From NCBI GenBank assembly GCA_020053475.1, contig JAGVNC010000049.1:1-40937 (forward strand): DNA of 40,937 nt. Reading direction: 5' to 3'. The notes under the pieces are model-generated. The model saw only the letters and a list, made by a program, of their open reading frames with translations. It made no database searches and was not told where the DNA came from. This DNA is from Candidatus Omnitrophota bacterium (GTDB taxonomy: Bacteria; Omnitrophota; Gorgyraeia; Zapsychrales; Zapsychraceae). A program made the translations under genes and the position numbers. This document shows positions 437 to 39,362 of the stretch, one piece after another (the first letter of the stretch is position 1; every line of letters starts with the position of its first letter).

Positions 437-501
437 AGTTCATAGCCGGGAGTTCGTAGTTGGGAGTATTTTTTCTACGAACTGCGAACGATGAACTCCC
501 C
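437..501. repeat. Inverted heptad array (AGTTCGT / ACGAACT type)
   Basis: Left arm AGTTCAT-AGCCGGG-AGTTCGT-AGTTGGG-AG; right arm CTACGAA-CTGCGAA-CGATGAA-CTCCCCT. Confidence 0.75.
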
Positions 502-505
502 TCTT

Positions 506-955
506 TTAAGGGGTTAATGTCATGGCCTGACCTTGGTATATTATATCAATTCCTGTTTTTCGAATAGCAACAATTTTAATTTCTGCAACGGTATCTCCCT
601 CATTGACCACTGCGCCGTTAATAATGGCCTGCGGCCGATCACTGTTCCAAATAATCCCCGTAATGACCAATGTCGGTAAAGCCATTTTATTCGCGGGTTC
701 ATCAGGTGTCCCAAATGGTGATTGTGGTTTTACCTGGCGGGGTGCCGATTTCGGCTCGGCAAATTTCGGCGGTTCGACAACCCGTGGCGGTTCAACAATC
801 TTCTTAGGTAAAAGCGGCTTAAACGGATTTTGTGCCGGAAAAGATTCCAGATAGGCATCTAAATTGTTAGAATCCGCTTCTTGGGCTGCGGGAGCGGAAA
901 CAATCCCCAGGAACATGAAGGTTATGATTAAATGGGCAAAGGATTTATTCATCAT
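506..955 (-). CDS. PilP-like pilus assembly lipoprotein/periplasmic protein
   Basis: ORF of 149 aa: signal peptide, Pro-rich linker, then ALPTLVITGIIWNSDRPQAIINGAVVNEGDTVAEIKIVAIRKTGIDIIYQGQ (PilP/GspC-like fold). Context between the secretin and the PilO-like gene. Confidence 0.6.
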   Translation of the reverse strand: MMNKSFAHLIITFMFLGIVSAPAAQEADSNNLDAYLESFPAQNPFKPLLPKKIVEPPRVVEPPKFAEPKSAPRQVKPQSPFGTPDEPANKMALPTLVITGIIWNSDRPQAIINGAVVNEGDTVAEIKIVAIRKTGIDIIYQGQAMTLTP

Positions 956-1596
956 TATTTTTGTGATTTATTGGGATCAACAGAGGCGTCCAATTCTTTT
1001 TTTAATTTGATCGAGGCGATCGTAATCTCAGCCTCGATTTTATTGCTCTCGGGCGCCGGCCCCCCGCGCTGTTGGAACGCAGGCGTCGCCATGGATGCTG
1101 AAAATTTATCGACGCGTAATGTGTAAGGAGCGTCTTCAATGCCTTTTAAAAACAAAACAATATCTTTAAATTCTTCCGAAGAAACATCGACATTAACACT
1201 GGTGATGACAACAAAATCCGTGGTTTTTTCCTGGGCCGGGGAAAAAGATAAAATCCGCACATTGTGGTCAACAGCAAATTCAGAAAGGAGTTCGACTAAA
1301 TCATCATATTCAATGGATTTAGGGACTATTGCCAGGAAATCATCAAATTTTTTCTGCGCTTCCTTATTAATTTTGACGGCATCCAGCGTTTCGGACATCA
1401 TTCGGACATCGTTGTTTAACCGTTGGGCCTTGTTTTGCTGAGAGGTGTAAATGTAGGTTGTGGCCAAAATAGTACCGGCGATCAGGGCCACGCTCAACAG
1501 GATATCCAGCCGGCTCTGCAGGATTTCCTTGATCTGCGCCACATTGATATTCTTGAGGTCTTTGATGTCTATTTGAGATAATTTGCTAAAATCCAT
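955..1596 (-). CDS. PilO-like type IV pilus inner-membrane protein
   Basis: 213 aa, one TM helix, coiled coil, then a ferredoxin-like region (FAVDHNVRILSFSPAQEKTTDFVVITSVNVDVSSEEFKDIVLFLKGIEDAPYTLRVDKFSAS). Confidence 0.65.
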   Translation of the reverse strand: MDFSKLSQIDIKDLKNINVAQIKEILQSRLDILLSVALIAGTILATTYIYTSQQNKAQRLNNDVRMMSETLDAVKINKEAQKKFDDFLAIVPKSIEYDDLVELLSEFAVDHNVRILSFSPAQEKTTDFVVITSVNVDVSSEEFKDIVLFLKGIEDAPYTLRVDKFSASMATPAFQQRGGPAPESNKIEAEITIASIKLKKELDASVDPNKSQK

Positions 1597-1605
1597 GGCT
1601 TGTCC

Positions 1606-3123
1606 TTATTGACACAATATTTTAAAAGAAGTGACGATGTAATCATTCATTCGTTGGGTGCTGGACGTGTCCAGTTCGATACTTTCAAAATGTTTGGCAA
1701 AGTCTTGATTATTTTTTATATTGCGTACAAATTTATGGACAACGCGGAATTGTTCCCCAACATTTTCTAGATAAACAAAACCGGAAATGGTGATCACGGG
1801 CGTCGGTTTCTCTTCTATTTTTCTTTCATAAGTGACTTCTAAATTTTCAATCCATGTCCCTTCGGGAAGCATCTTAGGCAGCACCGCCAAAAAAAAAGTG
1901 ACATTGCTAGAAAGCCGTACATTTGCAAAGCCTTCCAGTTTTTTCTTTAACGCAGCGGTTTTTTCCGTCAATTTCTGGGTGGAGGCACCCTTGTCAACCC
2001 CAAGCTGTATTTCTAGGTCTTCTTTTTGGGCAGTAGGCTTTGTGACAAACTGGTTAGTGTTGAGTAAAACCATGGATAAAATCCCGGCACAGACCAGGAC
2101 CACCCCAGCCACGGTTTTATAATTTAATTTTTTGGTGGATGCCGAACCCCGGAATTTAAATGATTTCGGTTTTTGCGGAGATAAATTAAAAACAGCCGGC
2201 GAGTTTACATCTTCTTGCAGCGTTGCCCCAAAACAATTCACATAATTAAGATCTTCCGTTTCATTTAAGTTGAGCAAAGCCTGCGTGTTAATAAATTGGA
2301 CGCTTAAGCCTATTTCTTTTTCGAGGGACTGGGCCAATTCGGCCTCCTTGGCCTTGGCGACAAAAACGATTTGTTTGACCTCTAAAAAGCTGTCCTGGCG
2401 GCTAAAATAATCCAGAGAGATACGGATTTCATTAAAAAGCCTCGTCATGAGCATTTGGTCATCAAGGTCATCGCTTCCTCCCGCCGATTTTAAATAAAAT
2501 TCACGGACAAACTGGGGGATCCCTTTGTCGATGATGATGATTTTCCCCCCCATCCCTTCTTTGGTGATAATGGCCGCCGTTTGCTCTTGCGGAAGAAAAT
2601 TGTGGAATGTCAACCCACGGATAAGGCTCATCGTCGCGGGCTCGATAAATTCCATCGTAAGCCCGGCTTGTTCAAATGTGGCGATATACGCATTTAAGGC
2701 TTCTTTTTTGATGGCCACAAAAATGATGCGGATGCGTTTCACTCCGTCTTGCGTAATGATAATGGGATGATAAGAATAGACGAGGTCCTCGATGGCGAAT
2801 GGAATATACTTGCTTGACTCGAAGTCAACGACCCCTTTGATTTCATTGGACTGCATCCAGGGGATAATAAAGGACCGGAAGATAATTTCTTTCGTCGGTA
2901 AGCCTAAATAAACGGGCATGGAAGAAATACGGTGCCGGGAACAATATTCTTGGATATTGTTCGACATCTGCGTCCCGTCAGGGGCATAAGTGTCGCCTGG
3001 TTGTTTGCGCGTGTTCTGGCTTGTAAACGGAATGTTGAATGGTTGGACAGGCTCTGTCCCCGCGCATTCGAGGAAGTAAAGGCTGTCGTTGCCCCAGTAA
3101 ACGCCTAATTTTTTATCGCCCAT
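1606..3123 (-). CDS. PilM-PilN fusion (GspL-like) type IV pilus/secretion platform protein
   Basis: 505 aa: N-terminal actin-like PilM region, single TM (VAGVVLVCAGILSMVLL) and PilN-like periplasmic region in one ORF. Confidence 0.65.
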   Translation of the reverse strand: MGDKKLGVYWGNDSLYFLECAGTEPVQPFNIPFTSQNTRKQPGDTYAPDGTQMSNNIQEYCSRHRISSMPVYLGLPTKEIIFRSFIIPWMQSNEIKGVVDFESSKYIPFAIEDLVYSYHPIIITQDGVKRIRIIFVAIKKEALNAYIATFEQAGLTMEFIEPATMSLIRGLTFHNFLPQEQTAAIITKEGMGGKIIIIDKGIPQFVREFYLKSAGGSDDLDDQMLMTRLFNEIRISLDYFSRQDSFLEVKQIVFVAKAKEAELAQSLEKEIGLSVQFINTQALLNLNETEDLNYVNCFGATLQEDVNSPAVFNLSPQKPKSFKFRGSASTKKLNYKTVAGVVLVCAGILSMVLLNTNQFVTKPTAQKEDLEIQLGVDKGASTQKLTEKTAALKKKLEGFANVRLSSNVTFFLAVLPKMLPEGTWIENLEVTYERKIEEKPTPVITISGFVYLENVGEQFRVVHKFVRNIKNNQDFAKHFESIELDTSSTQRMNDYIVTSFKILCQ

Positions 3124-3126
3124 AGG

Positions 3127-3321
3127 TTATGATGAAGGTTTTTCGCTGCGTACTTTTTGTGATTGAGAACGCAACCATTTGTCAATTTCATGTTTATCGA
3201 AGCGCCAAACGCCTCCCAATTTGATCCCGGAAATTTTTCGTTGATTGAGCCAATTGTAGATCGTCTGCTTTTGCAGTTTAAGATATCTGGCTAAATCATC
3301 GACATCCATCAAATTTTTCAT
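3127..3321 (-). CDS. Excisionase-family helix-turn-helix DNA-binding protein
   Basis: 64 aa MDVDDLARYLKLQKQTIYNWLNQRKISGIKLGGVWRFDKHEIDKWL, typical of helix-turn-helix excisionase-family proteins. Confidence 0.8.
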   Translation of the reverse strand: MKNLMDVDDLARYLKLQKQTIYNWLNQRKISGIKLGGVWRFDKHEIDKWLRSQSQKVRSEKPSS

Positions 3322-3368
3322 AGTTTATAATGCATTACAATGATTTTCTGTGGACTTATCTATACTTA

Positions 3369-3397
3369 ATTACACTATAATAGACTTACTTTGTCAA
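3369..3397 (-). promoter_or_regulatory. Putative sigma70-type promoter for the HTH/pilus operon
   Basis: Minus-strand TTGACA (3392-3397) - 17 nt - TGTAAT (3369-3374), upstream of the ORF at 3321. Confidence 0.45.
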
Positions 3398-3439
3398 AAC
3401 AATTTATAAGTATTTGACTGGGAGGACGTTAAGAGAGAT

Positions 3440-3775
3440 TTAATAAGAAACAGTAATGTCTAAATTGCTTGTTCCTAATGGGCCCGTCGGGGTATTGGCA
3501 AGATTAACAAAGACATTGAAAGAAAGCCCGTCTAATTCCTCAATTGTGTAAAATTGATTGACGGGAGATCCGGAGAGTTGATCGGCAAATGTATAAGCCA
3601 ACGCTCCCATGGCGAGCGTTTCGGCTTGCTGGCGGCGTACCTCATTCTCAGAAGTCATGACCTGGCTTACATTGATGCTAATAACGCTGATGGCTAACAC
3701 CATCATGACAAGGATAATCATGAGAACCGTAACAAACACAACCCCTTTTTCATTGTTCTTTAATTGTCGCAACAT
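3440..3775 (-). CDS. Pilin-like/PilX-type prepilin-related protein
   Basis: MLRQLKNNEKGVVFVTVLMIILVMMVLAISVISIN...SENEVRRQQAETLAMGALAYTF: basic leader, GVVFVTVLMIIL hydrophobic segment, then the helix typical of PilX-like minor pilins. Confidence 0.6.
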   Translation of the reverse strand: MLRQLKNNEKGVVFVTVLMIILVMMVLAISVISINVSQVMTSENEVRRQQAETLAMGALAYTFADQLSGSPVNQFYTIEELDGLSFNVFVNLANTPTGPLGTSNLDITVSY

Positions 3776-3777
3776 AT

Positions 3778-4044
3778 CTACTGTCCATCCTTCGGTCTTG
3801 CCGGGATAATCGTCACCAGCTGGTCGGAGGTAATATAGCTTTTACAGTGGGGGCATATCTCGATATCCTTGCCTTGAATATTAAAGAATAAATAGGTGCA
3901 ATACGCGCATCGCTGCAAATGATAAATTTGGCTGATGGTATTGGTATGCCTAGAGTTAGTATAAAATATCCAAAATGCAAAGACAAGGACTATTGAGAAA
4001 GATAAATAAAGGCCTAGCGCCATTCCAATGTCTATTTTAATCAT
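3778..4044 (-). CDS. Membrane-anchored zinc-ribbon-like small protein
   Basis: ORF track 3778..4089. Internal start MIKIDIGMALG at 4044 preferred. TM helix plus CAYC...CPHC motif. Confidence 0.5.
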   Translation of the reverse strand: MIKIDIGMALGLYLSFSIVLVFAFWIFYTNSRHTNTISQIYHLQRCAYCTYLFFNIQGKDIEICPHCKSYITSDQLVTIIPARPKDGQ

Positions 4045-4510
4045 TTGTTCTTGTCCTAATCGATTGATACACAGGCAATTGGACATCAATGCCTAAGTCT
4101 TCTTCATTCTGATATTGAGCTGCTTCTTGGGGCAAAAATGTTGATTTGAATGTTTTTTTCTGCTGGCTACTGGCCATCGCCGAAGGAGGTTTGGTTGTTC
4201 GCAGATCTCGATACGGAGATTGTTGGGACAAATGGCCATTTTCTTCAAAGCTATAAAAATTTAAAGGGTGGCTCTCTGTTTTTTTAAACGCAACAGGTGT
4301 CAGCTCTTGTATTTTTAAAATACTCCCTAGAAATGTAAATTGAGGATTGGAAGATATTGCCTGCACGGGAACGGTCAAACTTAAAGCAAACAGGATCAGG
4401 ACATGAGCCGCGGCAGACCAGGCAATCCCCTGTGAAACAGCGGGGTTAGTGAATGTCCGGGGCAATATCATCCATCTTCTCCTAGTTGGTTGCAATGTTG
4501 ATCCGTTCAA
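4037..4510 (-). CDS. TonB-like/periplasmic energy-transduction protein
   Basis: Single N-terminal TM (AWSAAAHVLILFALSLTV); encoded directly downstream of exbB/exbD-like genes. Confidence 0.4.
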   Translation of the reverse strand: MNGSTLQPTRRRWMILPRTFTNPAVSQGIAWSAAAHVLILFALSLTVPVQAISSNPQFTFLGSILKIQELTPVAFKKTESHPLNFYSFEENGHLSQQSPYRDLRTTKPPSAMASSQQKKTFKSTFLPQEAAQYQNEEDLGIDVQLPVYQSIRTRTND

Positions 4511-4877
4511 TGCCTAACCGTCGGCAAAGATTCCAAACATCGACAATCCTCCCGACGGAGGCGCGCCGGTCTGCCTTGATCAGAATGGTTAAATCCCGGC
4601 GGGGCACCGTTTGCAGCTGGTGAGTTAATTCTTTTTGGGTAACGACGTGATCATTGAGATAAAGAATGTTTTCGCTTGTCAGGGTAATCACAAAATGATC
4701 TTCGTTGAGAAGATCGCTGGTAACAGCTTTGGGGAGCCTAATGCCAATGCTTAAGGGTGATGTCAACGAAGATGTCAGGACAAAAAATAAGAGTAATAAA
4801 AAAAGAATGTTAAGAAATGAAACGAGGTGAATGTGTTTCAGCCCGGTTTCCAGCTTGTTGTCGCGTTGAAAACGCAC
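4482..4877 (-). CDS. ExbD/TolR-family biopolymer transport protein
   Basis: TM followed by ...IRLPKAVTSDLLNEDHFVITLTSENILYLNDHVVTQKELTHQL...ILIKADRRASVGRIVDVWNLCRRLGIERINIATN. Confidence 0.85.
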   Translation of the reverse strand: MRFQRDNKLETGLKHIHLVSFLNILFLLLLFFVLTSSLTSPLSIGIRLPKAVTSDLLNEDHFVITLTSENILYLNDHVVTQKELTHQLQTVPRRDLTILIKADRRASVGRIVDVWNLCRRLGIERINIATN

Positions 4878-4894
4878 TTCAGGGGCTCCTTATG

Positions 4895-5551
4895 TTAAGA
4901 AGACACGTCCATCATCTGGCTCATGAAATGGACGAGTTCTGTGGCGCCCCGCTCCATCTCTAAAACCAACGTGTTGACGCGATGAACAAAATAATGATAA
5001 GCGATGTACGCCGGGATCGCCACCAAGAGTCCACCCAGGGTTGTCAGGAGCGCCACGCTGATCCCTCCGGCCAGATCCCCGGGAGTGACGGGATTAAGGT
5101 CAGCAGTACGCATCTGGATTGTGTGAAAACAGCTGATCATCCCCACAACGGTTCCTAAAAGACCCAGCAAAGGCGCCATGTTCGCAATCGTGGCCAAAAC
5201 ATTTAAGCGGCTTTCCAATTTGGGGATTTCAAACAAACTGGCGTCTTGCAAGGCTTCTTTAATCTCTTCCTTCGATGCCCCTTGTTTCATCAGGCCCGCC
5301 TGAAAGATTTTAGCGACCGGCGAAGGATTGGCATCGCATAACTGAACGGCTTCTTTCAAACGGTTTTTTTGAAGATGTTCGAAAATTTCTTTTTTGAATT
5401 GTGAAACATTTGTCTCGATCTGATGGAAGAAAAAAAACTTTTCAATCATAATCCCCAACGCAAACAACGAACATAATAGGATCGGAATCATGATCGGCCC
5501 ACCGGCCCAAATCATCCTCCAGGCATTCATTCCCCCCAAACTATCCATCAT
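4895..5551 (-). CDS. MotA/TolQ/ExbB-family proton channel protein
   Basis: ESRLNVLATIANMAPLLGLLGTVVGMISCFHTI...GDLAGGISVALLTTLGGLLVAIPAYIAYHYF. Confidence 0.9.
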   Translation of the reverse strand: MMDSLGGMNAWRMIWAGGPIMIPILLCSLFALGIMIEKFFFFHQIETNVSQFKKEIFEHLQKNRLKEAVQLCDANPSPVAKIFQAGLMKQGASKEEIKEALQDASLFEIPKLESRLNVLATIANMAPLLGLLGTVVGMISCFHTIQMRTADLNPVTPGDLAGGISVALLTTLGGLLVAIPAYIAYHYFVHRVNTLVLEMERGATELVHFMSQMMDVSS

Positions 5552-5560
5552 TTTCTCCCT

Positions 5561-5614
5561 GCCTGCCGGTCACCGCTTGCAGCGGGATCCCGCCAACGGC
5601 GGTGACCGGCAGGC
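5561..5614. repeat. Palindromic intergenic module (perfect 15-bp stem with inner palindrome)
   Basis: GCCTGCCGGTCACCG (5561-5575) is the exact reverse complement of CGGTGACCGGCAGGC (5600-5614). The loop contains the palindrome GCGGGATCCCGC. Confidence 0.9.
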
Positions 5615-5633
5615 TCATCAAAATGGGTTTACA

Positions 5634-8135
5634 TTAAGGTTTTGATAAATTTAAATTGTTTTCGTTGATCCAATCAAGCCGCTCTTGGGCGAACTTGGCT
5701 TCATCGGTCTGGTAGGTTAAAATTTTATTATAAATTGTTGTGGCGTCCTCCCACTTTTCTTGGTTTTCAAAAATCCGGGCCACTTGGAGGTAAGATTTAA
5801 TCACCCAAGGCGTGTCATTGGGATACACATAAGGGATTTTTAAATATTCTTCGATGGCTTGTTCGGGATTGTTGAACAAATGATAACTGTCCCCGATGAG
5901 AAATTGGACTTCGGCGTTGCTGCGTTGGCCTAACCCTTTCGGGGATTCCAGCGCTTTGTGATACGCATCGATTGCTTGGGTGAAGTCCTTTTCATCCTTA
6001 TAAACGTCGGCGATCTTGATGTAAGCATCGCGTTTAAATTCAGGGGCTGTCGCCAGGATGTTTTGATAGGTCTTCATGGCGGAAGCTCCGTCTAGTTCGC
6101 GCGAAAAAATATCGGCGACAGCCAATTTGGCCTTGACGAACAATTCTTGGTCGCCCTGCGCGTTAATGTCTTTGAGGACATTGATCGCTTTGTCGTAATC
6201 TTGCCGGGCTTGGTAGGCCTGGGCCAGCTGGTAGCGGACCAAATTGACTTGGTCGCCGCCGGGAAAGTCTTCAATAAATTTTTCATAATAAGCGGCCGCC
6301 TGGGAGAATTCCGAAGATGCCAAGAAATGGTCCCCCAACCAAATCAGGGATTCCTGCGCGATTTCCGTCTGGGGGTATTGATTGACCAGGAGTTTAAATC
6401 GCTTGAGCGCCTCGGGGACTTTCCCTAGTTTGTATAAACATTTGGCCATGTTCATGTCCGCGCTCTTAACAATGGCCGGGCGATCAGGGTAATTTTTCAT
6501 CAAGTCCTCGAAGCGCTTGAGGGCGTTTTCATAGTCTTTAAGATTAAAATCCGAAAGGGCGAGGATGTAGGTGGCCTCAGCCAAAAATTCACTGCCCTGG
6601 GTGAGGTTTTTCATGAACGCTTCGATTTGTTGTTTGGCAGATGCCCAGTCGCCCTTTTTAAAATAAGCCACGGCCAAATAATAATTGGTGTCGTTGATGT
6701 AGCGGCTCCCCGGGAAATTGCTGCGCAAGCTTTGGAACGATAATGTGGCCATTTCGACTTTATTCAGTTTTAATAACGCAATTCCTTGACGGTACTGGAC
6801 GTAATCGGTGTAAGCACTATCGGGATAATCGCGCAAAATTTGGTCGTAGATCTCAATAGCTTTTTCGGGTTGATTGACGTCTTGATAGGCATCGCCGATT
6901 TGCGTCAGCGCGCTGATTTTAACCGTTTTATTTTGGGCCTTATCTTTGATGGCGCTAAAGACATTGACGGATTCGTCGATGTCCCCTTTCTTTAAATAAG
7001 ACCAGGCTAGTCCGAAATACGCTTTTTCCACGGCCTCCTGCTTTTGTTCATTGGTGGCAAATCCATCGATGATCGCCCGAAATTCGCTAATGGCATTGTC
7101 GTATTGTTTCAACAAAAAGGCAATATTGGCTTTCCCCAGACGGGCCTCCGCCATCCTGGGGCTATTCGGGAATGTCTGAATCATCTGATCATAAGCCTCA
7201 ATGGCTTTAGTGTTCTCTCCCCGCTCGGAGTAAAGGCTGGCTTGGCCTAAATAAACGTCATCGGTCAAGATTCCCTTTTCCTGGGCAAAGGCCAGGGCTT
7301 TATCAAAATACTGCTGGGACAAATCAAACTTTTCCAACTTCAGATAAGACCAGCCCAAGCTGACATTGGCCATAAACACCACTTTACTGTCCAGGGATTT
7401 TTCCGCCGCCTGCGCGTAATAGCCGATGGCTTCCAAATATTTCTCTAAATAATAATAAGATTCAGCGATATAAAAATAGGCTTCCGCTTGGCGGCTTGTT
7501 TGCGGATATTTGCTCAAGTATTCTTGAAAGTACTTAATGGCCGATTCATAATTTCGTTGGTTGTATTGGATTTCCCCTAACTTAAACGCGGCATCTTCAC
7601 TCAATTGATGGATGGGAAATTTCTTGAGGAGGGCAGCAAATGCATCAAACGCTTGATCGAATTGACTCTGTTCATAAAACACCCACCCTAACGAATAATA
7701 TGCCTGAGGGACATACGCGGAATCGGGGTAGAGTTTGATCAATTCTTGATAATATTGCTGAGATTGCTTGTAATCAGACCCTTTCAAGTATGTTTCCCCT
7801 AACCAAAACAATGTGGCGTCTTTTAACTCGTCAAAGGCCAGGAGGCTTTGGAAAATTTCGTAAGCTTTCAAATATTGGCCTTTGAAAAAATAACATTGGC
7901 CTAACAATAGGTTGATCTCAATTTTTTTCTCGGATTGAGGGAATTGCTCTAGGAATTGCGTGATGTAACGGGTCGCCACGTCGTAAAACCCATCATCAAA
8001 CGCTTTCTGAGCGACCAGAAACAACTCTTGTTCATCCCCTTGCGCCAAGGCGCGCACAGGAAGCGAAGCCGCAACAAAGCAACACAATAAAATAAGGCAC
8101 ACGGCTTTTTTGATGAAAATTGATTTTTTGAGCAT
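5634..8135 (-). CDS. Large exported TPR-repeat protein (YbgF/BamD-like repeats)
   Basis: ORF 5634..8195. Start MLKKSIFIKKAVCLILLCCFVAASLPVRALA at 8135 preferred (signal peptide). More than 15 degenerate TPR units such as FWLGETYLKGSDYKQSQQYYQELIKLYPDSAYVPQAYYSLG. Confidence 0.85.
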   Translation of the reverse strand: MLKKSIFIKKAVCLILLCCFVAASLPVRALAQGDEQELFLVAQKAFDDGFYDVATRYITQFLEQFPQSEKKIEINLLLGQCYFFKGQYLKAYEIFQSLLAFDELKDATLFWLGETYLKGSDYKQSQQYYQELIKLYPDSAYVPQAYYSLGWVFYEQSQFDQAFDAFAALLKKFPIHQLSEDAAFKLGEIQYNQRNYESAIKYFQEYLSKYPQTSRQAEAYFYIAESYYYLEKYLEAIGYYAQAAEKSLDSKVVFMANVSLGWSYLKLEKFDLSQQYFDKALAFAQEKGILTDDVYLGQASLYSERGENTKAIEAYDQMIQTFPNSPRMAEARLGKANIAFLLKQYDNAISEFRAIIDGFATNEQKQEAVEKAYFGLAWSYLKKGDIDESVNVFSAIKDKAQNKTVKISALTQIGDAYQDVNQPEKAIEIYDQILRDYPDSAYTDYVQYRQGIALLKLNKVEMATLSFQSLRSNFPGSRYINDTNYYLAVAYFKKGDWASAKQQIEAFMKNLTQGSEFLAEATYILALSDFNLKDYENALKRFEDLMKNYPDRPAIVKSADMNMAKCLYKLGKVPEALKRFKLLVNQYPQTEIAQESLIWLGDHFLASSEFSQAAAYYEKFIEDFPGGDQVNLVRYQLAQAYQARQDYDKAINVLKDINAQGDQELFVKAKLAVADIFSRELDGASAMKTYQNILATAPEFKRDAYIKIADVYKDEKDFTQAIDAYHKALESPKGLGQRSNAEVQFLIGDSYHLFNNPEQAIEEYLKIPYVYPNDTPWVIKSYLQVARIFENQEKWEDATTIYNKILTYQTDEAKFAQERLDWINENNLNLSKP

Positions 8136-8142
8136 GGCGATT

Positions 8143-18050: not shown

Positions 18051-18181
18051 GTCGCTCGTCGCTTGTCCCGTGGAAGGCTTCGCCTTCTCGGGATTTAATC
18101 CCCGAAATCGCAAAGCGATTTCAGGGGATCTCTTGTCGCTCGAAGTTTACTAGCGACCAGAGACGAGAAGACTAGCGACTA
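18051..18181. repeat. Heptad array (GTCGCTC / TAGCGAC) interrupted by a 63-nt double-hairpin module at 18067-18129
   Basis: GTCGCTC-GTCGCTT-GT[module]CTCTT-GTCGCTC-G...; right arm CTAGCGA-CCAGAGA-CGAGAAG-ACTAGCGA-CTA. Confidence 0.85.
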
Positions 18182-20756: not shown

Positions 20757-20758
20757 AT

Positions 20759-20893
20759 GAGTTATGAGTTCGTAGTTGGTCCCGTGGAAGGCAAAGCCTT
20801 CCCGGGATTGAATCCCCGAAATCGCAAAGCGATTTCAGGGGATAGTTCGTAGAAAAATTGCTTTTACTCCGACCTACGAACTCTGAACTACTA
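20759..20893. repeat. Heptad array (AGTTCGT) interrupted by the 63-nt module at 20781-20843
   Basis: GAGTTATGAGTTCGT-AGTTGGT[module]AGTTCGT-AG ... CTACGAA-CTCTGAA-CTA. Confidence 0.85.
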
Positions 20894-22243: not shown

Positions 22244-22301
22244 CAGCCGCCGGCGACCGGTGACTGGCCACTGGCGACTGGCGACTGGCGACTAGTTACT
22301 A
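22244..22301. repeat. Heptad array (TGGCGAC type)
   Basis: CAGCCGC-CGGCGAC-CGGTGAC-TGGCCAC-TGGCGAC-TGGCGAC-TGGCGAC-TAGTTAC, contiguous and in phase. Confidence 0.9.
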
Positions 22302-23468: not shown

Positions 23469-23487
23469 TTCATGGACCTCTTTTATG

Positions 23488-23624
23488 AGTTGAGAGTTCG
23501 TAGTGGGTAGTTCGTAGAAAGAACGCTTTTCCTCCGAACTATTCCCTGAAATCGCTTTGCGATTTCGGGGATTTAATCCCGGGAAGGCTTCGCCTTCCAC
23601 GGGACGAACTCCCCACTACGAACT
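23488..23624. repeat. Heptad array (AGTTCGT/ACGAACT) with the 63-nt module inverted at 23541-23603
   Basis: ...CCGAACT[module rc]ACGAACT-CCCCACT-ACGAACT; left arm GAGTTGAGAGTTCGTAGTGGGTAGTTCGTAG. Confidence 0.85.
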
Positions 23625-24536
23625 TTTTAATAGCTCTAACAATATCGCTTTCTGGATGTGCAGGCGGTTCTCTGCCTGGTCAAACACAATGGAATGCCCC
23701 CCGTCAATGACTTCCTCGGTGACTTCTTGCCCGCGGTGCGCCGGCAGGCAGTGCATAAAAATAAAATCCGGGTTCGCGAGCCGGACAAGTTCATTATTGA
23801 TTTGATAGTTCTTAAAATCATGTAACCGCTGTTTGCTTTCGGCTTCCTGCCCCATGCTCACCCAGGTGTCCGTGTAAATAATATTGGAGTTCTGGGCGGC
23901 TTTTTGCGCGTTGTGCGAAACAGAAAGAATGGACCCTGATTCTTCGGCATAACCGGCGGCTGCTTCAACCACATCATTTTGGGGCTCGTACCCTTTGGGC
24001 GTGGCCACATGAATGTTGATGCCCATCTTCGAGCATCCTAATAACAATGACAGGCACACGTTGTTGCCATCTCCGATGTACGCCAATGTGAGGCCTTTAA
24101 GTTCCTGAAATTTTTCTTTGATCGAAAAAAGGTCCGCCAGCGCCTGACAAGGATGAAACAGGTCCGACAATCCATTGATGACCGGGATCGTCGCCGATTT
24201 GGCTAAATCAATGATATCTTGATGGCGATGGGTGCGGGCAACAATCGCATCCAAATAACGGGACAATGTCTTGGAAACGTCCGATGTGGATTCGCGCACG
24301 CCCAAATTAATTTCTTCCGGCCCAAGATAGACGCAGTAGCCGCCCAATTCCCACACGCCGACCTCAAAGGAGACGCGGGTGCGGTTCGACGGTTTTTGAA
24401 AAATCAGCCCGACGGTCTTGCCTTTGAGCGCCTGGTTGTAGGCGGACGGATTATTCTTCATCTTCTGCGTGAGTTCCAGAAGTTCGGCGATTTCGTCGCT
24501 TGAAAAATCTTGTAAATTAATTAGATCACGTTTCAT
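23616..24536 (-). CDS. argF: Ornithine carbamoyltransferase
   Basis: GLIFQKPSNRTRVSFEVGVWELGG...DLFHPCQALADL...YTDTWVSMGQE...FMHCLPAHRGQEV. Confidence 0.98.
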   Translation of the reverse strand: MKRDLINLQDFSSDEIAELLELTQKMKNNPSAYNQALKGKTVGLIFQKPSNRTRVSFEVGVWELGGYCVYLGPEEINLGVRESTSDVSKTLSRYLDAIVARTHRHQDIIDLAKSATIPVINGLSDLFHPCQALADLFSIKEKFQELKGLTLAYIGDGNNVCLSLLLGCSKMGINIHVATPKGYEPQNDVVEAAAGYAEESGSILSVSHNAQKAAQNSNIIYTDTWVSMGQEAESKQRLHDFKNYQINNELVRLANPDFIFMHCLPAHRGQEVTEEVIDGGHSIVFDQAENRLHIQKAILLELLKSS

Positions 24537-24540
24537 TTTT

Positions 24541-24606
24541 CAGTGGTCAGCGGTCAGTGGCCAGTGATCAGAATTATTTTTCTGACCACTGAGCACTGAT
24601 CACTCT
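24541..24606. repeat. Inverted heptad array (AGTGGTC / CTGACCA)
   Basis: AGTGGTC-AGCGGTC-AGTGGCC-AGTGATC-AG, AT-rich loop, CTGACCA-CTGAGCA-CTGATCA-CT. Confidence 0.9.
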
Positions 24607-25792: not shown

Positions 25793-25868
25793 ATAGTTCA
25801 TAGTTCGTAGTTCGTGGTTCGTAGTAAAAACTAAATCTGTCTACGAACTCCGAGCTACCAACTAATTA
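25793..25868. repeat. Inverted heptad array (AGTTCGT)
   Basis: AGTTCAT-AGTTCGT-AGTTCGT-GGTTCGT-AG ... CTACGAA-CTCCGAG-CTACCAA-CTAATTA. Confidence 0.9.
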
Positions 25869-27900: not shown

Positions 27901-28032
27901 AAATTCGAAGCACGAAATTCGCCCGCCCCGCCGCTTCGCGGCTAAAAGCCGCGGGCCGGGGAAATCCGAAACAATATTTAAATTTAAAATTTTGAATTTG
28001 TTTCGTGCTTCGTACTTCGAATTTCGGATTTT
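27901..28032. repeat. Heptad array (ATTCGAA / TTCGTGC) with a 40-nt GC palindromic module at 27922-27961
   Basis: AATTCGAA-GCACGAA-ATTCG[CCCGCCCCGCCGCTTCGCGGCTAAAAGCCGCGGGCCGGGG]AA-ATCCGAA-ACA...; right arm TTTCGTGCTTCGTACTTCGAATTTCGGATTTT. Confidence 0.85.
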
Positions 28033-29053: not shown

Positions 29054-29103
29054 AATTTTTGGTCTCTAAATCTAAGGAATATAAAGGTTTATATTAAAAT
29101 AAA

Positions 29104-29144
29104 AAACCTATCTCGTCAACTCTTTTGTAGAGGGAGATAGGTTT
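29104..29144 (-). terminator. Rho-independent terminator downstream of rpsI
   Basis: AAACCTATCTC / GAGATAGGTTT 11-bp perfect stem, followed on the minus strand by TTTTTTATTTTAATA. Confidence 0.8.
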
Positions 29145-29174
29145 AAATTCCTTACTTCGGCTATATTCTTTAGG

Positions 29175-29588: not shown

Positions 29589-29648
29589 GTCTCTCGTCTC
29601 TTGTCTCTCGTCGCCAGCTAGCGACTAGAGACGAAAGGCAAGCGACTA
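29589..29648. repeat. Inverted heptad array (GTCTCTC / CTAGCGA)
   Basis: GTCTCTC-GTCTCTT-GTCTCTC-GTCGCCA-G-CTAGCGA-CTAGAGA-CGAAAGG-CAAGCGA-CTA. Confidence 0.92.
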
Positions 29649-31703: not shown

Positions 31704-31707
31704 GATC

Positions 31708-31828
31708 GTGACCAGTCGACAGTCGCCAGTGCGAAAATTTGTCCCTGGTCACTGGCGATCCCCTGAAATCGCTTGCGATTTCGGGGATTAAATCCCGGGA
31801 AGGCGAAGCCTTCCACGGGACCGGCGAC
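31708..31828. repeat. Heptad array (CAGTCGC / CTGGCGA) with the 63-nt module inverted at 31758-31819
   Basis: CTGGTCA-CTGGCG[module rc]A-CCGGCGA-CTT; left arm CAGTCGA-CAGTCGC-CAGTGCG. Confidence 0.85.
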
Positions 31829-31829
31829 T

Positions 31830-33868: not shown

Positions 33869-33877
33869 ATGTAAAAA

Positions 33878-33946
33878 AGGGTTAGAGGGTTAAAGGGTTA
33901 GAGGACTAAAGGGTTTAACCCCCTTATCCCTTTGGCCCTAACCCTA
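33878..33946. repeat. Inverted octad array (GGGTTAAA / CCCTAACC type)
   Basis: GGGTTAGA-GGGTTAAA-GGGTTAGA-GGACTAAA-GGGTTTAA then CCCCCTTATCCCTTTGGCCCTAACCCT. Confidence 0.8.
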
Positions 33947-34011
33947 TTATCAATTTTCAAAGTATATCACACCCTTGATTTTTGCAAAGAGGAATCTTAT
34001 ATTCAGATAGT

Positions 34012-35262
34012 TTATTTTTGGAATTTCTTGACGATAACGCTGGCGTTGTGGCCGCCAAAGCCCAGTGAGTTGGACATCGCGGAATTGACGGTAATTTTGC
34101 GCGCCTTGTTGGGAACGTAATCGAGGTCACACTCAGGATCGGGGTTTTCATAATTGATCGTGGGAGGAATGATATTGTCCCGGACCGCCAAAACGATCGC
34201 CGCAAATTCGACACCACCGGCGGCACCAAGCAAGTGGCCTGTCATTGACTTAGTCGAACTGATCGGGACTTTATAAGCATGGTCTTTAAACACATTCTTG
34301 ACGGCCAATGTTTCGACTTTATCATTGAGATACGTGGATGTTCCGTGCGCGTTAATGTAAGAAATATCTTTTGGCGTAAACCCGGCGTCTTTGATAGCAA
34401 GTTCCATGGCTTTCCCTGCCCCTCTGCCGCTTTCTTCAGGAGCGGTGATGTGAAAGGCATCGGACGTGCGGCCGTAGCCGACCATTTCCGCAAGAATCGG
34501 CGCCCCACGTTTTTGGGCATGGTCGAGTGTTTCTAAAATGGCAATCCCAGCTCCTTCAGCCATGACAAACCCGTCGCGTTCTTTATCAAATGGCCGTGAA
34601 GCTCGCTGCGGCTCATCGTTGCGTTGGCTTAACGCTTTGAGGGCACAAAATCCGCCCAACCCCAGGATTGTTGTGGCGCTTTCGCTTCCGCCGGCGATAA
34701 TGACATCGGCATCCCCGTATTGAATAAAACGAAACGCATCACCGATGGCGTTGGTGGCTGTTGAGCACGCGGTGGACACACAACTGCACAATCCTTTTGC
34801 ACCCGACTGGATTGAAATCTGTCCGGCCGCTTCATTAATGATCACTTTCGGGATGAAGTGCGGCGAAATGCGGCTCGGGCCTTTCTCTATATATTTCTGA
34901 TATTCAGCTTCGGTCGTGCCAATGCTGCCGATCCCTGAGCCGACCAACACACCGACGCGGTCTGGATCAACATTTTTAATATCAAGCTTGGCATTCGCGA
35001 GGGCTTCTTTGCTGGCGACCCAGCCGTATTGGACAAATCGGGCGAGATTCCGGACTTCTTTAGTGGAGAAATGATCTAAGGCGTTGTAATCAATGACCGT
35101 GCCGGCAATGCGCGAATCGAATTGGCTGACATCAAAATCCGTGATGGCGCGAATCCCGTTTTTTCCTTCTAAAAGGGCTTTCCAAAATTTTTCTACGCCT
35201 GTTCCTACGGGAGAAACAACCCCCAACCCTGTGATGACGACGCGTCTTTTGGTCATTTTCAA
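34012..35262 (-). CDS. fabF: Beta-ketoacyl-ACP synthase II
   Basis: RRVVITGLGVVSPVGTGVEKFWKALLEGKNGI...CSCVSTACSTATNAIGDAFRFIQYGDADVIIAGGSE...NAHGTSTYLNDKVE. Confidence 0.98.
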   Translation of the reverse strand: MKMTKRRVVITGLGVVSPVGTGVEKFWKALLEGKNGIRAITDFDVSQFDSRIAGTVIDYNALDHFSTKEVRNLARFVQYGWVASKEALANAKLDIKNVDPDRVGVLVGSGIGSIGTTEAEYQKYIEKGPSRISPHFIPKVIINEAAGQISIQSGAKGLCSCVSTACSTATNAIGDAFRFIQYGDADVIIAGGSESATTILGLGGFCALKALSQRNDEPQRASRPFDKERDGFVMAEGAGIAILETLDHAQKRGAPILAEMVGYGRTSDAFHITAPEESGRGAGKAMELAIKDAGFTPKDISYINAHGTSTYLNDKVETLAVKNVFKDHAYKVPISSTKSMTGHLLGAAGGVEFAAIVLAVRDNIIPPTINYENPDPECDLDYVPNKARKITVNSAMSNSLGFGGHNASVIVKKFQK

Positions 35263-35280
35263 AAGGCCCTAGATAGTACA

Positions 35281-35308
35281 AGTGCCCCGACTAACTAGCC
35301 GAGGCACT
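35281..35308 (-). promoter_or_regulatory. Intercistronic hairpin between acpP and fabF
   Basis: Minus strand AGTGCCTCG-GCTAGTTAG-TCGGGGCACT; 9-10 bp stem including a G-U pair. Confidence 0.5.
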
Positions 35309-35342
35309 AAATGTTATTTCTCTATATTATAATAAGCGATAA

Positions 35343-35579
35343 TTACGCTTTTGCTTTTTCTTGAATGTATTTGATCGCATCACCGACGGTCGTCATCTTT
35401 TCCGCGTCTTCATCTGGGATTTCTACGCTGAATTCTTCTTCGAGCGCCATGATGAGTTCGACGGTGTCTAACGAATCCGCCCCCAGATCATCGATAAACG
35501 ACGCATCGGGAGTGACTTCTTCAGCTTTGACGCCGAGTTGTTCAGCAATGATGGATTTGATTTTTTCTTCGACTGCCAT
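35343..35579 (-). CDS. acpP: Acyl carrier protein
   Basis: [56 protein letters not shown]. Confidence 0.99.
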
Positions 35580-35617
35580 GAATCCCTCCTTGATTTACTT
35601 TACTAAAAAAATCTGTT

Positions 35618-36358
35618 TTATATCGCCATGCCCCCGTCGACAATGAGGGTTTGTCCGGTAATGTAGCTTGCTTGTTCAGAGGCCAAGAATAGACACACAC
35701 CGGCTACGTCCTGGGCTGTTCCTAACTTGCCCAGCGGAATGCGCTTGAGAATTTCTTCCTGGACCTGGCTTTTCATTTGGGCGGTCATATCGGTCTGGAT
35801 GTACCCTGGGGCCACCGCGTTGGCGGTAATCCCCCGGGAAGCCAACTCGCGCGCCACGGATTTGGTGAAGCCGATGATCCCGGCTTTACTGGCCGCGTAA
35901 TTCGCTTGCCCGACATTCCCTGTTATTCCAATGATCGATGAGATGTTGATGATCCGGCCGGCCTTTTCTTTGAGCATGGCCCGCGCCACAATCTTCGTGC
36001 AATTAAAGACCCCCCGGAGATTGATATCGATGACGCTTTGAAAGTCATCTTCGCTCATTCGGAGGAGTAAATTGTCTTTGGTGATGCCTGCGTTGTTAAC
36101 TAATATATCAACCCTCTTATGTTTGTCAAGAATTTTATTGACGATTTCTGTCACATTGGCGAGATTTGTCACGTCGCACGCGAAACTTTCGGCCGCAAAC
36201 CCGATATCAATGATCTCATCGCGCACCCGATCGGTAGCTTCAGCCGTCCTTCCTATAATAATGGCGGTCGCCCCCTCTTTGGCGAAAGCAAAAGCGATCT
36301 CTTTGCCAATACCGCGGGTGGATCCAGTGACTAAAACGATTTTGTTTTGAAAACGCAT
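35618..36358 (-). CDS. fabG: 3-oxoacyl-ACP reductase
   Basis: KIVLVTGSTRGIGKEIAFAFAKEGA...VDILVNNAGITKDNLLLRMSEDDFQSVIDINLRGVFNCTK...YAASKAGIIGFTKSVARE. Confidence 0.97.
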   Translation of the reverse strand: MRFQNKIVLVTGSTRGIGKEIAFAFAKEGATAIIIGRTAEATDRVRDEIIDIGFAAESFACDVTNLANVTEIVNKILDKHKRVDILVNNAGITKDNLLLRMSEDDFQSVIDINLRGVFNCTKIVARAMLKEKAGRIINISSIIGITGNVGQANYAASKAGIIGFTKSVARELASRGITANAVAPGYIQTDMTAQMKSQVQEEILKRIPLGKLGTAQDVAGVCLFLASEQASYITGQTLIVDGGMAI

Positions 36359-36366
36359 AGTGAAAT

Positions 36367-36461
36367 AGGGTTTAGGGGTAGAGGGTTAAGGGGTTTAAGG
36401 GTAAAGGGAAATCTAAAATTTATTTTCAAACCCTATATCCCTCTAACCCTTTAACCCTTTA
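36367..36461. repeat. Inverted octad array (GGGTTTAA / AACCCTTT)
   Basis: AGGGTTTAGGGGTAGAGGGTTAAGGGGTTTAAGGGTAAAGGG ... AACCCTATATCCCTCTAACCCTTTAACCCTTTA. Confidence 0.8.
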
Positions 36462-36503
36462 TATCAATTAATTTTCCTTTTGCAAGGGAAAATACTTAGA
36501 CAT

Positions 36504-36935
36504 TTACACATCAATGTCTTCAAAAGGCCCTTCTCTTCGGCGAAACGGCGATACTTGAACGACTTGCCCTTGTCGGATCATGGATTCGAGCTTTCGGCGC
36601 ACAAGAAGTTTGATGAGGGCTCGCGTCCAAGGGATCAGAAGCAGCAACCCCAGGACATCCGTAATAAACCCTGGCGCTAAGAGCATGATCCCTCCCACCA
36701 AAATCATCAGCCCATCCAGCAGCTCACTACTGGGCAAGACGCCTTGGTTGAGGCTTTGTTGAGTTTTATTAAGAACCCTAAATCCTTCAAGCCGGGCAAG
36801 CCATGCCCCGACCGTTCCGGTCAGAATGACCAAAAGAATAGTTGGCCCAGCGCCAATCACGCCTCCCACCTTAATTAAGATGTAGAGTTCCAGCGCTGGT
36901 AGGACGGTAAAGAGAAGAATTAAATAGATCAACAT
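36504..36935 (-). CDS. fxsA: FxsA family membrane protein
   Basis: YLILLFTVLPALELYILIKVGGVIGAGPTILLVILTGTVGAWLARLEGFRVL...PGFITDVLGLLLLIPWTRALI. Confidence 0.9.
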   Translation of the reverse strand: MLIYLILLFTVLPALELYILIKVGGVIGAGPTILLVILTGTVGAWLARLEGFRVLNKTQQSLNQGVLPSSELLDGLMILVGGIMLLAPGFITDVLGLLLLIPWTRALIKLLVRRKLESMIRQGQVVQVSPFRRREGPFEDIDV

Positions 36936-36976
36936 GGTAAAAACTCTAAATCCTGTTATGTAAAAGTGTCAAGCTT

Positions 36977-37180
36977 CATTAGTGAATCCGATTGAATAGT
37001 AAGAGCCGTTCATTGAAACCCGAACTATCTGTTATTCGTGGCATCCCAAAGGATCACACTGTTTGATGTTTCGTTTAAATTCTCGGGGGTCTCTATCTAA
37101 CAAACGAGCCGAAGCTCTGGATTTAGTCGAGGCGTCCCCCAAGAAAAGGTTCCAAATTTCAATCACAGCTGGTAAACATA
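36977..37180 (-). ncRNA. Candidate bridge (seek) RNA region of the IS element
   Basis: About 200 nt non-coding 3' flank between the transposase stop and the terminal IR. Minus strand contains GGGGG...GAGC-TTCG-GCTC...CCCCC nested stems (37085-37140). Confidence 0.35.
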
Positions 37181-38248
37181 TTAATGAACAATGTAAGGCC
37201 GCTGCTCTTTTAAGACGCAATAGATCCTGTGAGTCAATTTGCGAGCAACAGCGACGATCGCTTTTCTGGCCCCTATTTTGGGATGATGACGATTTTTGAT
37301 TCTATGATAAAACTGGTTGAGTTCTTTATCTTTGCGTATGGCCGACCATGATGCTTCAATGAGCAAGGCTCTTAAATGGCGGTCACCTAAATGAGTAATT
37401 GATCCGTGTTCAACAGTATCTCCGGTAGATTTTTCACTTGGGACTAACCCAAGAAAGGCCGACAGTTCTCTGACATTCTTTAAATAACTCGGATCACCTA
37501 TTCGGCCCAGGGTGGTAATGGCAACAATAAAACCAATCCCCGGCAGGGAAGTTAAATAATTCATATTCTGTCGGAGCTCTTTGGAATTTTTAACAAGCGC
37601 CTGTAACTGCCGAAGAATCAGCAGCGTTTGTTTTCGGGCGTATTCAATGTCCATCAAAAGCATATCCAATCTTTGCCGTTCTGCAGGGGAACAGGATAAT
37701 GCTTTAAGAGCTTGAATATAACAATTAGACCAGTTTTGCTCGATATCTTTTAAGGCATAATCCAAATGAGCGAATAATAACAAGGCTTTGATTCTTTGTT
37801 TCGCCGCCTTGCGGTTATAGACATAATTCTCCCTGAGATTGATCAGGTGACGCAATTCACGGTATTGACCTTGGGGAACGCGAATGGATGTTAGTTTGCC
37901 GGCTCTCAATTCATCGACAATCTTTTGGGAGTCAAGGCGGTTGTTCTTTATTTTTTGATTGGGCGCTCCGGGAATAGACAATGGAGAGATTACCATACAA
38001 TCTTCATTCTGTTCTCTCAGGTAATCGTGCAGATGATATCCCGTTGGCCCGGCTTCGTAAGCATACAGAATTTTCTTCTCAGCAAAATGATTTTGCATGT
38101 AATGATGTAATTGCTCCGGCTCCGAGGGTATTTTTTTACTTTTGTTCATACAGTGCTGATCTTTGATTGTAAAAGAAAAACTGTTCCTATCAACGTCCAG
38201 ACCTACGAAAAGGTCGTAGTCTTCTGGTAAATACGTGCTTGGTGTCAT
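37181..38248 (-). CDS. IS110-family transposase/recombinase
   Basis: DLFVGLDVDRNSFSFTI...YEAGPTGYHLHDYLREQ...NNRLDSQKIVDELRAGKL...LTSLPGIGFIVAITTLGRIGDPSYLKNVRELSAFLGLVPSEKSTGD. Start at 38248 with SD AAGGAGG. Confidence 0.93.
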   Translation of the reverse strand: MTPSTYLPEDYDLFVGLDVDRNSFSFTIKDQHCMNKSKKIPSEPEQLHHYMQNHFAEKKILYAYEAGPTGYHLHDYLREQNEDCMVISPLSIPGAPNQKIKNNRLDSQKIVDELRAGKLTSIRVPQGQYRELRHLINLRENYVYNRKAAKQRIKALLLFAHLDYALKDIEQNWSNCYIQALKALSCSPAERQRLDMLLMDIEYARKQTLLILRQLQALVKNSKELRQNMNYLTSLPGIGFIVAITTLGRIGDPSYLKNVRELSAFLGLVPSEKSTGDTVEHGSITHLGDRHLRALLIEASWSAIRKDKELNQFYHRIKNRHHPKIGARKAIVAVARKLTHRIYCVLKEQRPYIVH

Positions 38249-38321
38249 GCTTTCCTCCTTTTTTGTTTTGTCCAAGGACATTATAGATGTCCTCGAGGAA
38301 AGCTTGACACTTTTAACATAT

Positions 38322-38428
38322 CATCTAAACTCAAAATCCTAAGTAAATCCAAAATCACAAATTCAAAACCTTTTTGAATTTTGAATTTTGGGTTTATTTA
38401 GAGTTTAGGATTTTGGATTTAGGGCTTA
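38322..38428. repeat. Inverted heptad array (AAATCCT / ATTTTGA / TTTAGGA), separated from an outlier at 36938-36955 by the IS
   Basis: CTAAACT-CAAAATC-CTAAGTA-AATCCAA-AATCACA-AATTCAA ... GAATTTT-GAATTTT-GGGTTTA-TTTAGAG-TTTAGGA-TTTTGGA-TTTAGGG-CTTAGTA. Confidence 0.8.
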
Positions 38429-38812
38429 GTATTTTAACTCCGGTAATAACTCCAAGACAGCCATTTTCAAAAACTCTCTTTCATAAAAGTCTGCATCAAT
38501 CACTTGATTGTTCCAAACGATGATGTCTAGATCAATTGTCCGTGGGCCGTATTTGACCGAGGAATCTTCCCTCCCTAATTGTTTTTCCATTTCTTGAAGG
38601 ATGCCTTTGACCTGTTCAAGATTAAGTGGTGTTTCCACGAGGACAGCGCCATTCAAAAAATCGTCTTGCGCTAAATAGCCGATTGGCTTGGTTTGAATGA
38701 ATTGCGATTCTTTTAATCCCTTAAATTGCTCGTTCAGGAGGGATTTTGCCTGAGCAATATTTTGATCAGCTTCAATGTTAGACCCTAAACCAATAATTAC
38801 TGTGTTCATCAT
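38426..38812 (-). CDS. Second, shortened HPPK (FolK)-like protein
   Basis: VIIGLGSNIEADQNIAQA...VKYGPRTIDLDIIVWNNQVIDADFYEREFLKMAVLELLPELKY. HPPK signature present but the usual (V)PHPR segment is missing. Confidence 0.8.
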   Translation of the reverse strand: MMNTVIIGLGSNIEADQNIAQAKSLLNEQFKGLKESQFIQTKPIGYLAQDDFLNGAVLVETPLNLEQVKGILQEMEKQLGREDSSVKYGPRTIDLDIIVWNNQVIDADFYEREFLKMAVLELLPELKY

Positions 38813-38814
38813 TT

Positions 38815-38897
38815 AGCTCGTACCTGCCTGCCGGCAGGCAGGGCTGATAGCTCATCGCTCATAGTTTTTAAACTAAGAGCTGCGAGCTGTGAGCTTT
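38815..38897. repeat. Heptad array (AGCTCAT / GAGCTGC) with a 20-nt perfect palindrome module at 38823-38842
   Basis: AGCTCGT-A[CCTGCCTGCCGGCAGGCAGG]GCTGAT-AGCTCAT-CGCTCAT-AG ... AGAGCTG-CGAGCTG-TGAGCT. Confidence 0.88.
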
Positions 38898-39241
38898 TTC
38901 TTTGTTAGTTCCACCGAAACAGAATCTGCAAATCGTAAGGCCAATGGTTTATCAACGCGGACGAGTGCTTCGGTGACTTTAGGCGTATCTAAAACTAACG
39001 TGAGGATTTTGTCGGCTAATTTTTCTAAGAGAAAATAGCGGGAGCTTTGCACGTGTTTAATGATTTTTTTCGTCAGTGTTTTATAGTCGATCGTGTCTTT
39101 GAGATTGTCCGATTTCGATGCGTTCGTGGCGTCATAATCAATGACGACATTGATGACAATATCTTGCTCCACGTCGCGTTCCCATTCATTCGCCCCGATA
39201 ATAGTCCTTAGGCGTAGATTAGTAATGCGAATTTTAGCCAT
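38873..39241 (-). CDS. folB: Dihydroneopterin aldolase (FolB/FolX family)
   Basis: MAKIRITNLRLRTIIGANEWERDVEQDIVINVVIDYDA...SRYFLLEKLADKILTLVLDTPKVTEALVRVDKPLALRFADSVSVEL. The track's extra N-terminus is translated repeat. Confidence 0.92.
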   Translation of the reverse strand: MAKIRITNLRLRTIIGANEWERDVEQDIVINVVIDYDATNASKSDNLKDTIDYKTLTKKIIKHVQSSRYFLLEKLADKILTLVLDTPKVTEALVRVDKPLALRFADSVSVELTKKKLTARSS

Positions 39242-39257
39242 AATTATCCTTTTAAAA

Positions 39258-39362
39258 GTCGCTCGTCCCGTGGAAGGCTTTGCCTTCCCGGGATTAAATC
39301 CCCGAAATCGCAAAGCGATTTCAGGGGATCTCTAGAGACTAGAAACGAGTAACGAGCGACGA
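39258..39362. repeat. Heptad array (GTCGCTC/GTAACGA) with the 63-nt module at 39267-39329
   Basis: GTCGCTC-GT[module]CTCTA-GAGACTA-GAAACGA-GTAACGA-GCGACGA. Confidence 0.9.

Follow-up and report, generated by a model that had tools for sequence, protein, structure and literature searches.

Heptad arrays between the genes of an Omnitrophota bacterium as probable arms of small palindromic mobile elements related to S23 genes

What occupies the gaps between the genes of this bacterium, and how did it get there? The stretch of DNA examined here (the window) comprises 40,937 nucleotides of contig JAGVNC010000049.1 from a Candidatus Omnitrophota bacterium (assembly GCA_020053475.1), and 15 of its intergenic gaps carry tandem arrays of short units, 7 nt long in 13 gaps and 8 nt long in two, mostly arranged as two inverted arms. 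We argue that these arrays are probably the inverted arms at the ends of small mobile palindromes, whose full-length relatives enclose one gene for an S23/IVP four-helix-bundle protein, the 23S rRNA intervening-sequence protein (PF05635, TIGR02436). To our knowledge, S23/IVP proteins are widespread and have a solved structure without having an accepted role. S23 elements and their relatives lacking an open reading frame (ORF) were not proposed as an explanation in the first-pass annotation of the window, which had described the arrays from sequence alone.

The arrays themselves are real. All of the gaps named in the annotation contain self-matching DNA of the given period (13/13 for period 7, 2/2 for period 8), and inside the window 74 strong lag-7 windows were counted, against 0.0 in first-order Markov simulations. 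Statements about the whole genome are based either on pattern searches or on a 694-kb sample made up of the window and 40 stretches of up to 20 kb each. This sample contains 50 lag-7 segments with a score of at least 14 and its second-order Markov simulation none, so that the genome-wide signal is far above shuffled DNA; other lags give at most 6 segments each, except for the harmonics 14 (19) and 21 (8). An assembly artefact is excluded, since the signal recurs in independently assembled relatives and on complete plasmids. The inverted-arm layout is borne out by single-strand folds of seven window arrays (z = −2.5 to −7.8), the array at 22244-22301 being an almost one-armed exception, and several arrays are weak individually, such as that at 437-501 (scores 6 and 7). 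Arrays had been described as filling codirectional gaps; by the counts of a simple ORF caller they occupy 40/289 codirectional gaps of at least 30 bp, but also 4/27 convergent gaps and 1/30 divergent gaps.

What the arrays belong to is indicated by related genomes in which the arms are not empty. In the relative G029, arms of the AAAYYCW family stand about 440 bp apart and enclose a 119-aa ORF of PF05635/TIGR02436 (L282), and an S23 gene of G032 (L321) likewise lies within arms with the AAAYYCW hinge. AAAYYCW copies in the present genome are ORF-less, the relationship expected between miniature inverted-repeat transposable elements (MITEs) and their full-length relatives. PF05635 genes were detected in 29/37 genomes of relatives, and 20 of the 24 genes with usable flanks, drawn from 23 genomes, are bounded by inverted repeats (score at least 15), compared with 5/540 control genes of the same lineage (0.9%) and 7/1070 from 80 named contigs. 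These arms are mostly built of heptads, with octads in several and a period of 10, judged by eye, in one. The AGTGGTC unit of the window array at 24526-24606 is also that of the arms enclosing S23 genes of G003 and G009, and across the 37 genomes the number of S23 genes rises with array density (rho 0.46, p 0.004).

The same arrangement is found on plasmids. S23 genes located by tblastn on plasmids of Nostoc, Anabaena, Calothrix, Aulosira, Trichormus, Pseudanabaena, Picosynechococcus, Stanieria, Geminocystis, Azospirillum, Gemmatirosa and Riemerella, which span four phyla, are flanked on either side by heptad or octad arrays in 15/15 cases, inverted in 14/15. The arm units vary from case to case, many of the genes lie between codirectional genes, and among 31 elements the similarity of S23 proteins tracks the similarity of their units (Mantel r 0.27, p 0.0036). 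Taken together, these genomic comparisons demonstrate an association of S23 genes with such arms across phyla, which as a general association is stated in no paper that we found among the open-access literature. Separately, S23/four-helix-bundle genes occur within cas6/cas4, cas10/cmr3 and suf operons (L360, L361, L363, L373), where annotated operon "members" of the S23 family may be mobile-element genes.

Homologous plasmid loci of Nostoc catch such elements both present and absent. One Nostoc gene pair carries an S23 element of about 414 bp with AGTCAGG arms in three homologous copies (L359, L374 and L375), and in five further copies (L371 and L376-L379) the same two genes are separated by 3 bp. 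L371 alone carries a different S23 element, with GGGAAAA arms, between the two genes that follow. The S23 gene of L375 is itself interrupted by a palindrome of about 184 bp, which has arms of the AGTCAGG unit, contains no S23 gene, and is absent in L359 and L374; here, by direct comparison, a heptad palindrome without an ORF has arrived whole. Comparisons of this kind show that arms are gained by discrete insertion, both with a gene and by themselves, and that unit families spread within genomes.

Sister genomes were compared at orthologous gaps, as the annotation had envisaged, and there the arrays turn over fast, since such gaps are filled, empty or occupied by another unit family. Genes of G003 and G019 are about 87% identical at the nucleotide level and collinear in the stretches compared, and their orthologous gaps hold different families (GCACGAA versus GTCGTAA, TGTTATG versus CGAAATC, AAATGAC versus GTATCTC, and others) or an array in one genome and nothing in the other. 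In G008 almost all compared gaps of a 15-kb stretch are filled, and the same gaps are mostly short in G020 (about 77% identity), 40 kb of which yielded no lag-7 segment. Array density among relatives is patchy, from 0 to 30 per 100 kb. None of the 37 genomes of the order has a match to the nuclease SbcD over the curated cut-off (0/37), with a profile that matched 13/14 control genomes at E 0.001, 8 of them over the cut-off. The order thus seems to be without this usual palindrome-cutting nuclease, which, judging from E. coli, may permit long palindromes, although a lack common to all 37 genomes is unable to explain which of them carry arrays.

If arrays come and go this readily, could they simply be generated where they stand, by a polymerase that slips by 7 nt and switches template within short hairpins, terminators for example, with no mobile element involved? 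Slippage has been conjectured for heptamers in earlier work that PMC4692102 and PMC4679880 cite, and identical neighbouring units of the GTCNCYN family are slightly more frequent than expected, so slippage does occur in that family. One G003/G019 gap also has outer arms in common with a different inner length. The architecture of the families speaks for another process, however. Arm order is constant wherever both arms are visible in the sample (31/31), and the AAAYYCW palindrome follows the scheme [AAAYYCW]n-AAATAAA-[YYCAAAA]n-loop-[TTTTGRR]n-TTTATTT-[WGRRTTT]n, whose hinge motif occurs across the phylum in 72/384 genomes, from 64 genera. A reversed control pattern for this motif matched 0-2 times per strand and genome; one other reversed-pattern control was unclean because the reversed pattern is itself a unit in other genomes. 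Within AAAYYCW heptads, AAA and C are almost invariant and the remaining positions are free, and adjacent heptads are identical in only 3% of cases, compared with 15% expected. At the variable positions, arms within one copy match less (0.32) than arms of different copies (0.47, p <1/20000), with six AAAYYCW copies from other genomes tending in the same direction, not significantly. We had first read this anti-pairing as selection against perfect hairpins and set that reading aside, as the phylum-wide copies suggest two conserved, non-identical arms and not ongoing slippage.

Generation in place would also have to account for the discrete gain of arms, with and without a gene, at otherwise near-identical loci, and for the association of arrays with S23 genes, and we consider it unlikely. 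The first-pass annotation had inferred a dedicated copying or expansion mechanism; a copying process is supported, but the fixed arm order, the phylum-wide hinge and the depletion of identical AAAYYCW neighbours show that expansion in place is not the main one. It had likewise regarded the units as locus-specific variants of one architecture. Gap filling and a shared layout with different units are confirmed, but the families are dispersed and recur, with 25 clusters of GTCNCYN, 16 of AGTTCGT and 15 of AAAYYCW in the sample.

The window contains the following arrays, given without strand. Heptad palindromes include those of the units AGTGGTC (24526-24606, lag-7 self-match, fold z −5.5), AGTTCGT (25793-25868, lag-7 self-match, z −4.1), GAAATTCG/GAAGCACG (27901-28032, similar to the CGAAA family of G003/G019), GTCTCTC (29589-29648, lag-7 self-match, z −2.6) and AGCTCAT (38815-38897, z −3.7). 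The weak AGTTCGT-type array at 437-501 has two short arms (lag-7 segments 451-467 and 475-496, single-stranded DNA fold z −4.3), and the almost one-armed TGGCGAC array at 22244-22301 has a lag-7 score of 29 and, in TRF, period 7 with 6.0 copies. The two period-8 palindromes are built of AAAGGGTT units (33878-33946, lag-8 score 17) and GGGTT-type units (36367-36461, lag-8 scores 13 and 17). Besides these, a conserved short palindrome, ACCTATCYCGTCAACT...GAGATAGGT, lies upstream of argC-side genes in three genera (window 29090-29150; L151 17370-17430; L152 13899-13950); it has no Rfam match and may be a leader or terminator that has been conserved. Named Desulfuromonadales, Nitrospirae and Thermodesulfovibrionales contigs carry heptad arrays as well, a number of them clearly inverted (L021 11720-11767 and 13024-13116; L030 9062-9173 and 9887-9941; L008 1793-1845).

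The remaining arrays have themselves received insertions. A two-hairpin repeat of 62-63 bp has about 40 copies in the genome; 28 of them were read, and most of these lie within heptad arrays. In the window it splits the GTCGCTC-type array at 18051-18181 (repeat at 18067-18129, plus strand), the AGTTCGT-type arrays at 20757-20893 (20781-20843, plus) and 23487-23624 (23541-23603, minus), and the GTCGCTC-type array at 39258-39362 (39267-39329, plus), as well as the GTCGCCA/TGGCGAC palindrome at 31708-31828, where the copy is of 62 bp (31758-31819, minus); a further 62-63-bp copy at 40715-40777 lies outside any array. Since this repeat is lodged within them, the spans that the annotation began at 18051, 20759, 23488, 31708 and 39258 are partly non-heptad DNA. 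All five copies within arrays are in phase, and when the repeat is removed in silico the heptad phase continues (lag-7 match 0.66, compared with 0.14-0.35 at other non-harmonic lags). The repeat was therefore ruled out as the generator of the arrays, which also exist without it. An IS110-family element with approximate ends (36954-38325, minus strand; transposase 37181-38281, PF01548/PF02371) breaks the left arm of the AAAYYCW palindrome at 38326-38429 (AAGTAAA/TTTATTT hinge, z −7.8), leaving its severed outer left end at 36937-36953, where AAACTCTAAATCC is in phase with the sequence from 38326 onward. This element has one copy in the genome, which makes statistics impossible. Insertion of the repeat and of the IS110 element in phase within arrays means that the arrays are also landing sites.

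GT directly precedes the 63-bp repeat in 23/28 copies, and insertion mostly after GT, in phase and with no visible duplication, is what a Y1-type transposase might produce. Could the Y1 (RAYT-like) transposases of the genome then have spread the heptad palindromes too, in the manner of repetitive extragenic palindromes (REPs), with the S23 gene either carried along or resident there independently? REPs are dispersed palindromes, and this genome has three Y1_Tnp genes but no S23 gene. The three RAYT-like genes are flanked by non-heptad sequences, however, so that RAYT/Y1 was rejected as the mobiliser; judged by eye, genomes rich in arrays and genomes free of them are not told apart by their number of Y1 genes; and the genes that are found inside heptad arms are S23 genes. 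We regard this route as quite improbable. Two of the RAYT-like genes, G000:C78 72370-73260 (L200) and G000:C43 (L211), bear flanking palindromes of their own, ACGCACCGGGTGCGT and GGGACAGACACTATTTT, unrelated to the heptads.

Functional RNA hairpins between operon genes, serving as terminators, stabilising mRNA or marking processing sites and maintained because their pairing is selected for, would fit the stable folds, the position of arrays just after stop codons in codirectional gaps, and the finding that stems of intervening sequences (IVSs) are RNase III substrates (PMC4990558). In most arrays, however, we saw no position-specific pairing of the arms beyond their shared consensus when compared with units shuffled within an arm, which argues against a conserved RNA stem, and compensatory base changes between arms, as expected of a structured RNA or terminator, were not found. 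A function as RNA structure was rejected on this lack of covariation. Together with the poorer match of AAAYYCW arms within copies than between them, the lack of any Rfam match in the window, and orthologous gaps that are empty or hold unrelated units in sister genomes, this leaves selection for hairpins very hard to credit. Equally implausible is a reading suggested earlier for Geobacter metallireducens, where similar sites are annotated as global regulator sites (PMC2700814), in which the heptad is the site of a nucleoid or regulatory protein and the palindrome has a regulatory role: some AAAYYCW positions are near-invariant and others free, but presence is patchy, sister genomes have different units, and the insertions are discrete. 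Protein binding is nevertheless compatible with the mobile-element explanation, as S23 itself could be the binder.

If the arrays are remnants of S23 elements, the full-length element is the one seen in other genomes, one S23/IVP gene framed by two arms built of 7- or 8-nt units, and the forms in the window would be ORF-less, MITE-like remnants reduced to arm, short loop and arm. The S23 protein would recognise the heptads of its own arms and act in trans, recruiting a cutting and joining enzyme, with ORF-less copies moved by the same factor. Elements would settle between a stop codon and the ribosome-binding site of the next gene, a neutral spot in a compact operon, so that placement would reflect tolerance. 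Solved structural relatives of the S23 proteins are 2gsc (XCC0516) and 2rld, and the Xanthomonas S23 protein is described as a homopentamer of four-helix bundles (cited in PMC4990558). Homology to the Avd accessory proteins of diversity-generating retroelements is distant only, with weak matches of the NCBI Avd profile to two of six S23 proteins (E 6e-6 and 5e-8, below the cut-off).

Several observations weigh against this explanation. There is no S23 gene in the window, and none is detectable in this genome at 96% completeness, for which reason we term the window arrays ORF-less relatives and not members of IVS/S23 elements. A sequence link between window arrays and elements with an S23 gene exists only for the AAAYYCW family and, as an exact unit, for AGTGGTC; unit sequence on its own proved uninformative when window arrays were matched with the arms of S23 genes, and for the other families the link would be one of architecture and of analogy with relatives. 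Among the relatives, 4/24 S23 genes are without strong inverted flanks, and some genomes with several S23 genes have no period-7 array in the sampled stretch. The S23 gene on the Pseudanabaena galeata plasmid (L361) lies among very long same-strand arrays, AAAAGCT and AAAAGCC, that are not inverted. No target-site duplication of more than about 3 bp is evident at the Nostoc sites, and we know of no nuclease or joining activity of S23. The extension to chromosomal short tandemly repeated repetitive sequences (STRRs) and Xanthomonas repeats, taken up below, is a prediction.

How do these elements relate to known systems? The closest are the IVSs of 23S rRNA genes with S23p, which are regarded as selfish and whose inverted terminal repeats form a long stem around the S23 ORF (PMC4990558), an arrangement echoed by the mostly two-armed window arrays; in Coxiella burnetii, tandem GACAGAT heptamers stand just before the S23 ORF and vary in copy number among strains (PMC4990558). 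Known IVSs lie within 23S rRNA genes (in the Candidate Phyla Radiation, as rRNA insertions), whereas the elements here occupy gaps between protein genes throughout the genome, with far more ORF-less than full forms. The heptameric STRRs of heterocystous cyanobacteria, which the annotation had rightly named as relatives, are intergenic tandem heptanucleotides of several unit types per genome, as here, and in STRR-bearing genera plasmid-borne S23 genes are enclosed by heptad arms, with the same layout in Nostocales. STRRs are, however, described as tandem repeats and not as inverted arms of elements, and our comparison covers plasmids.

The annotation also knew of no description of inverted heptad arrays, which does not hold. 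The intergenic GGGAATC repeats of Xanthomonas have fixed and free positions (GGGANTN), form inverted convergent pairs at 70/186 Xcc sites, lie mostly in codirectional gaps near the upstream gene, and are poorly shared among species (PMC4692102). The arrays here share with them inverted pairs in codirectional gaps, but the Xanthomonas repeats are one G-rich unit, studied as quadruplex DNA, and no window unit is of the GGGANTN type; they have not been linked to S23, though the solved structure 2gsc (XCC0516) comes from the same species. The "global regulator binding sites" of Geobacter metallireducens are dispersed tandem repeats of 7 and 8 nt, in part with opposite strand orientation, interpreted as regulator sites with mobility and S23 not considered (PMC2700814). 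REP/REPIN-RAYT systems likewise comprise short palindromes dispersed between genes and presumed to move non-autonomously, but REPs are tagged GTAG or CGTC, are tied to Y1 transposases, and have arms that are not heptad arrays (PMC3733652).

We suggest, tentatively, a wider reading in which S23 proteins define an unrecognised class of bacterial mobile DNA: the small protein, which has no known nuclease domain, would read the tandem 7- or 8-nt units of its own inverted arms and spread full-length elements as well as ORF-less hairpins. Much of the excess of heptameric simple sequence repeats, including STRRs, the Xanthomonas GGGAATC repeats, the Geobacter sites and the window arrays, would then be its footprint, and several scattered bacterial repeat families would receive one common explanation. 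The over-representation of heptamers in bacterial genomes has so far been backed by a polymerase-slippage conjecture only, and S23 proteins have gone without an accepted role; linking the two makes both puzzles testable, with a candidate trans factor, a candidate recognition site in its own arm unit, and natural filled and empty sites in culturable Nostoc. The link would also suggest where the IVSs of rRNA genes came from, and why the gaps of some genomes swell with palindromes that are different in every relative.

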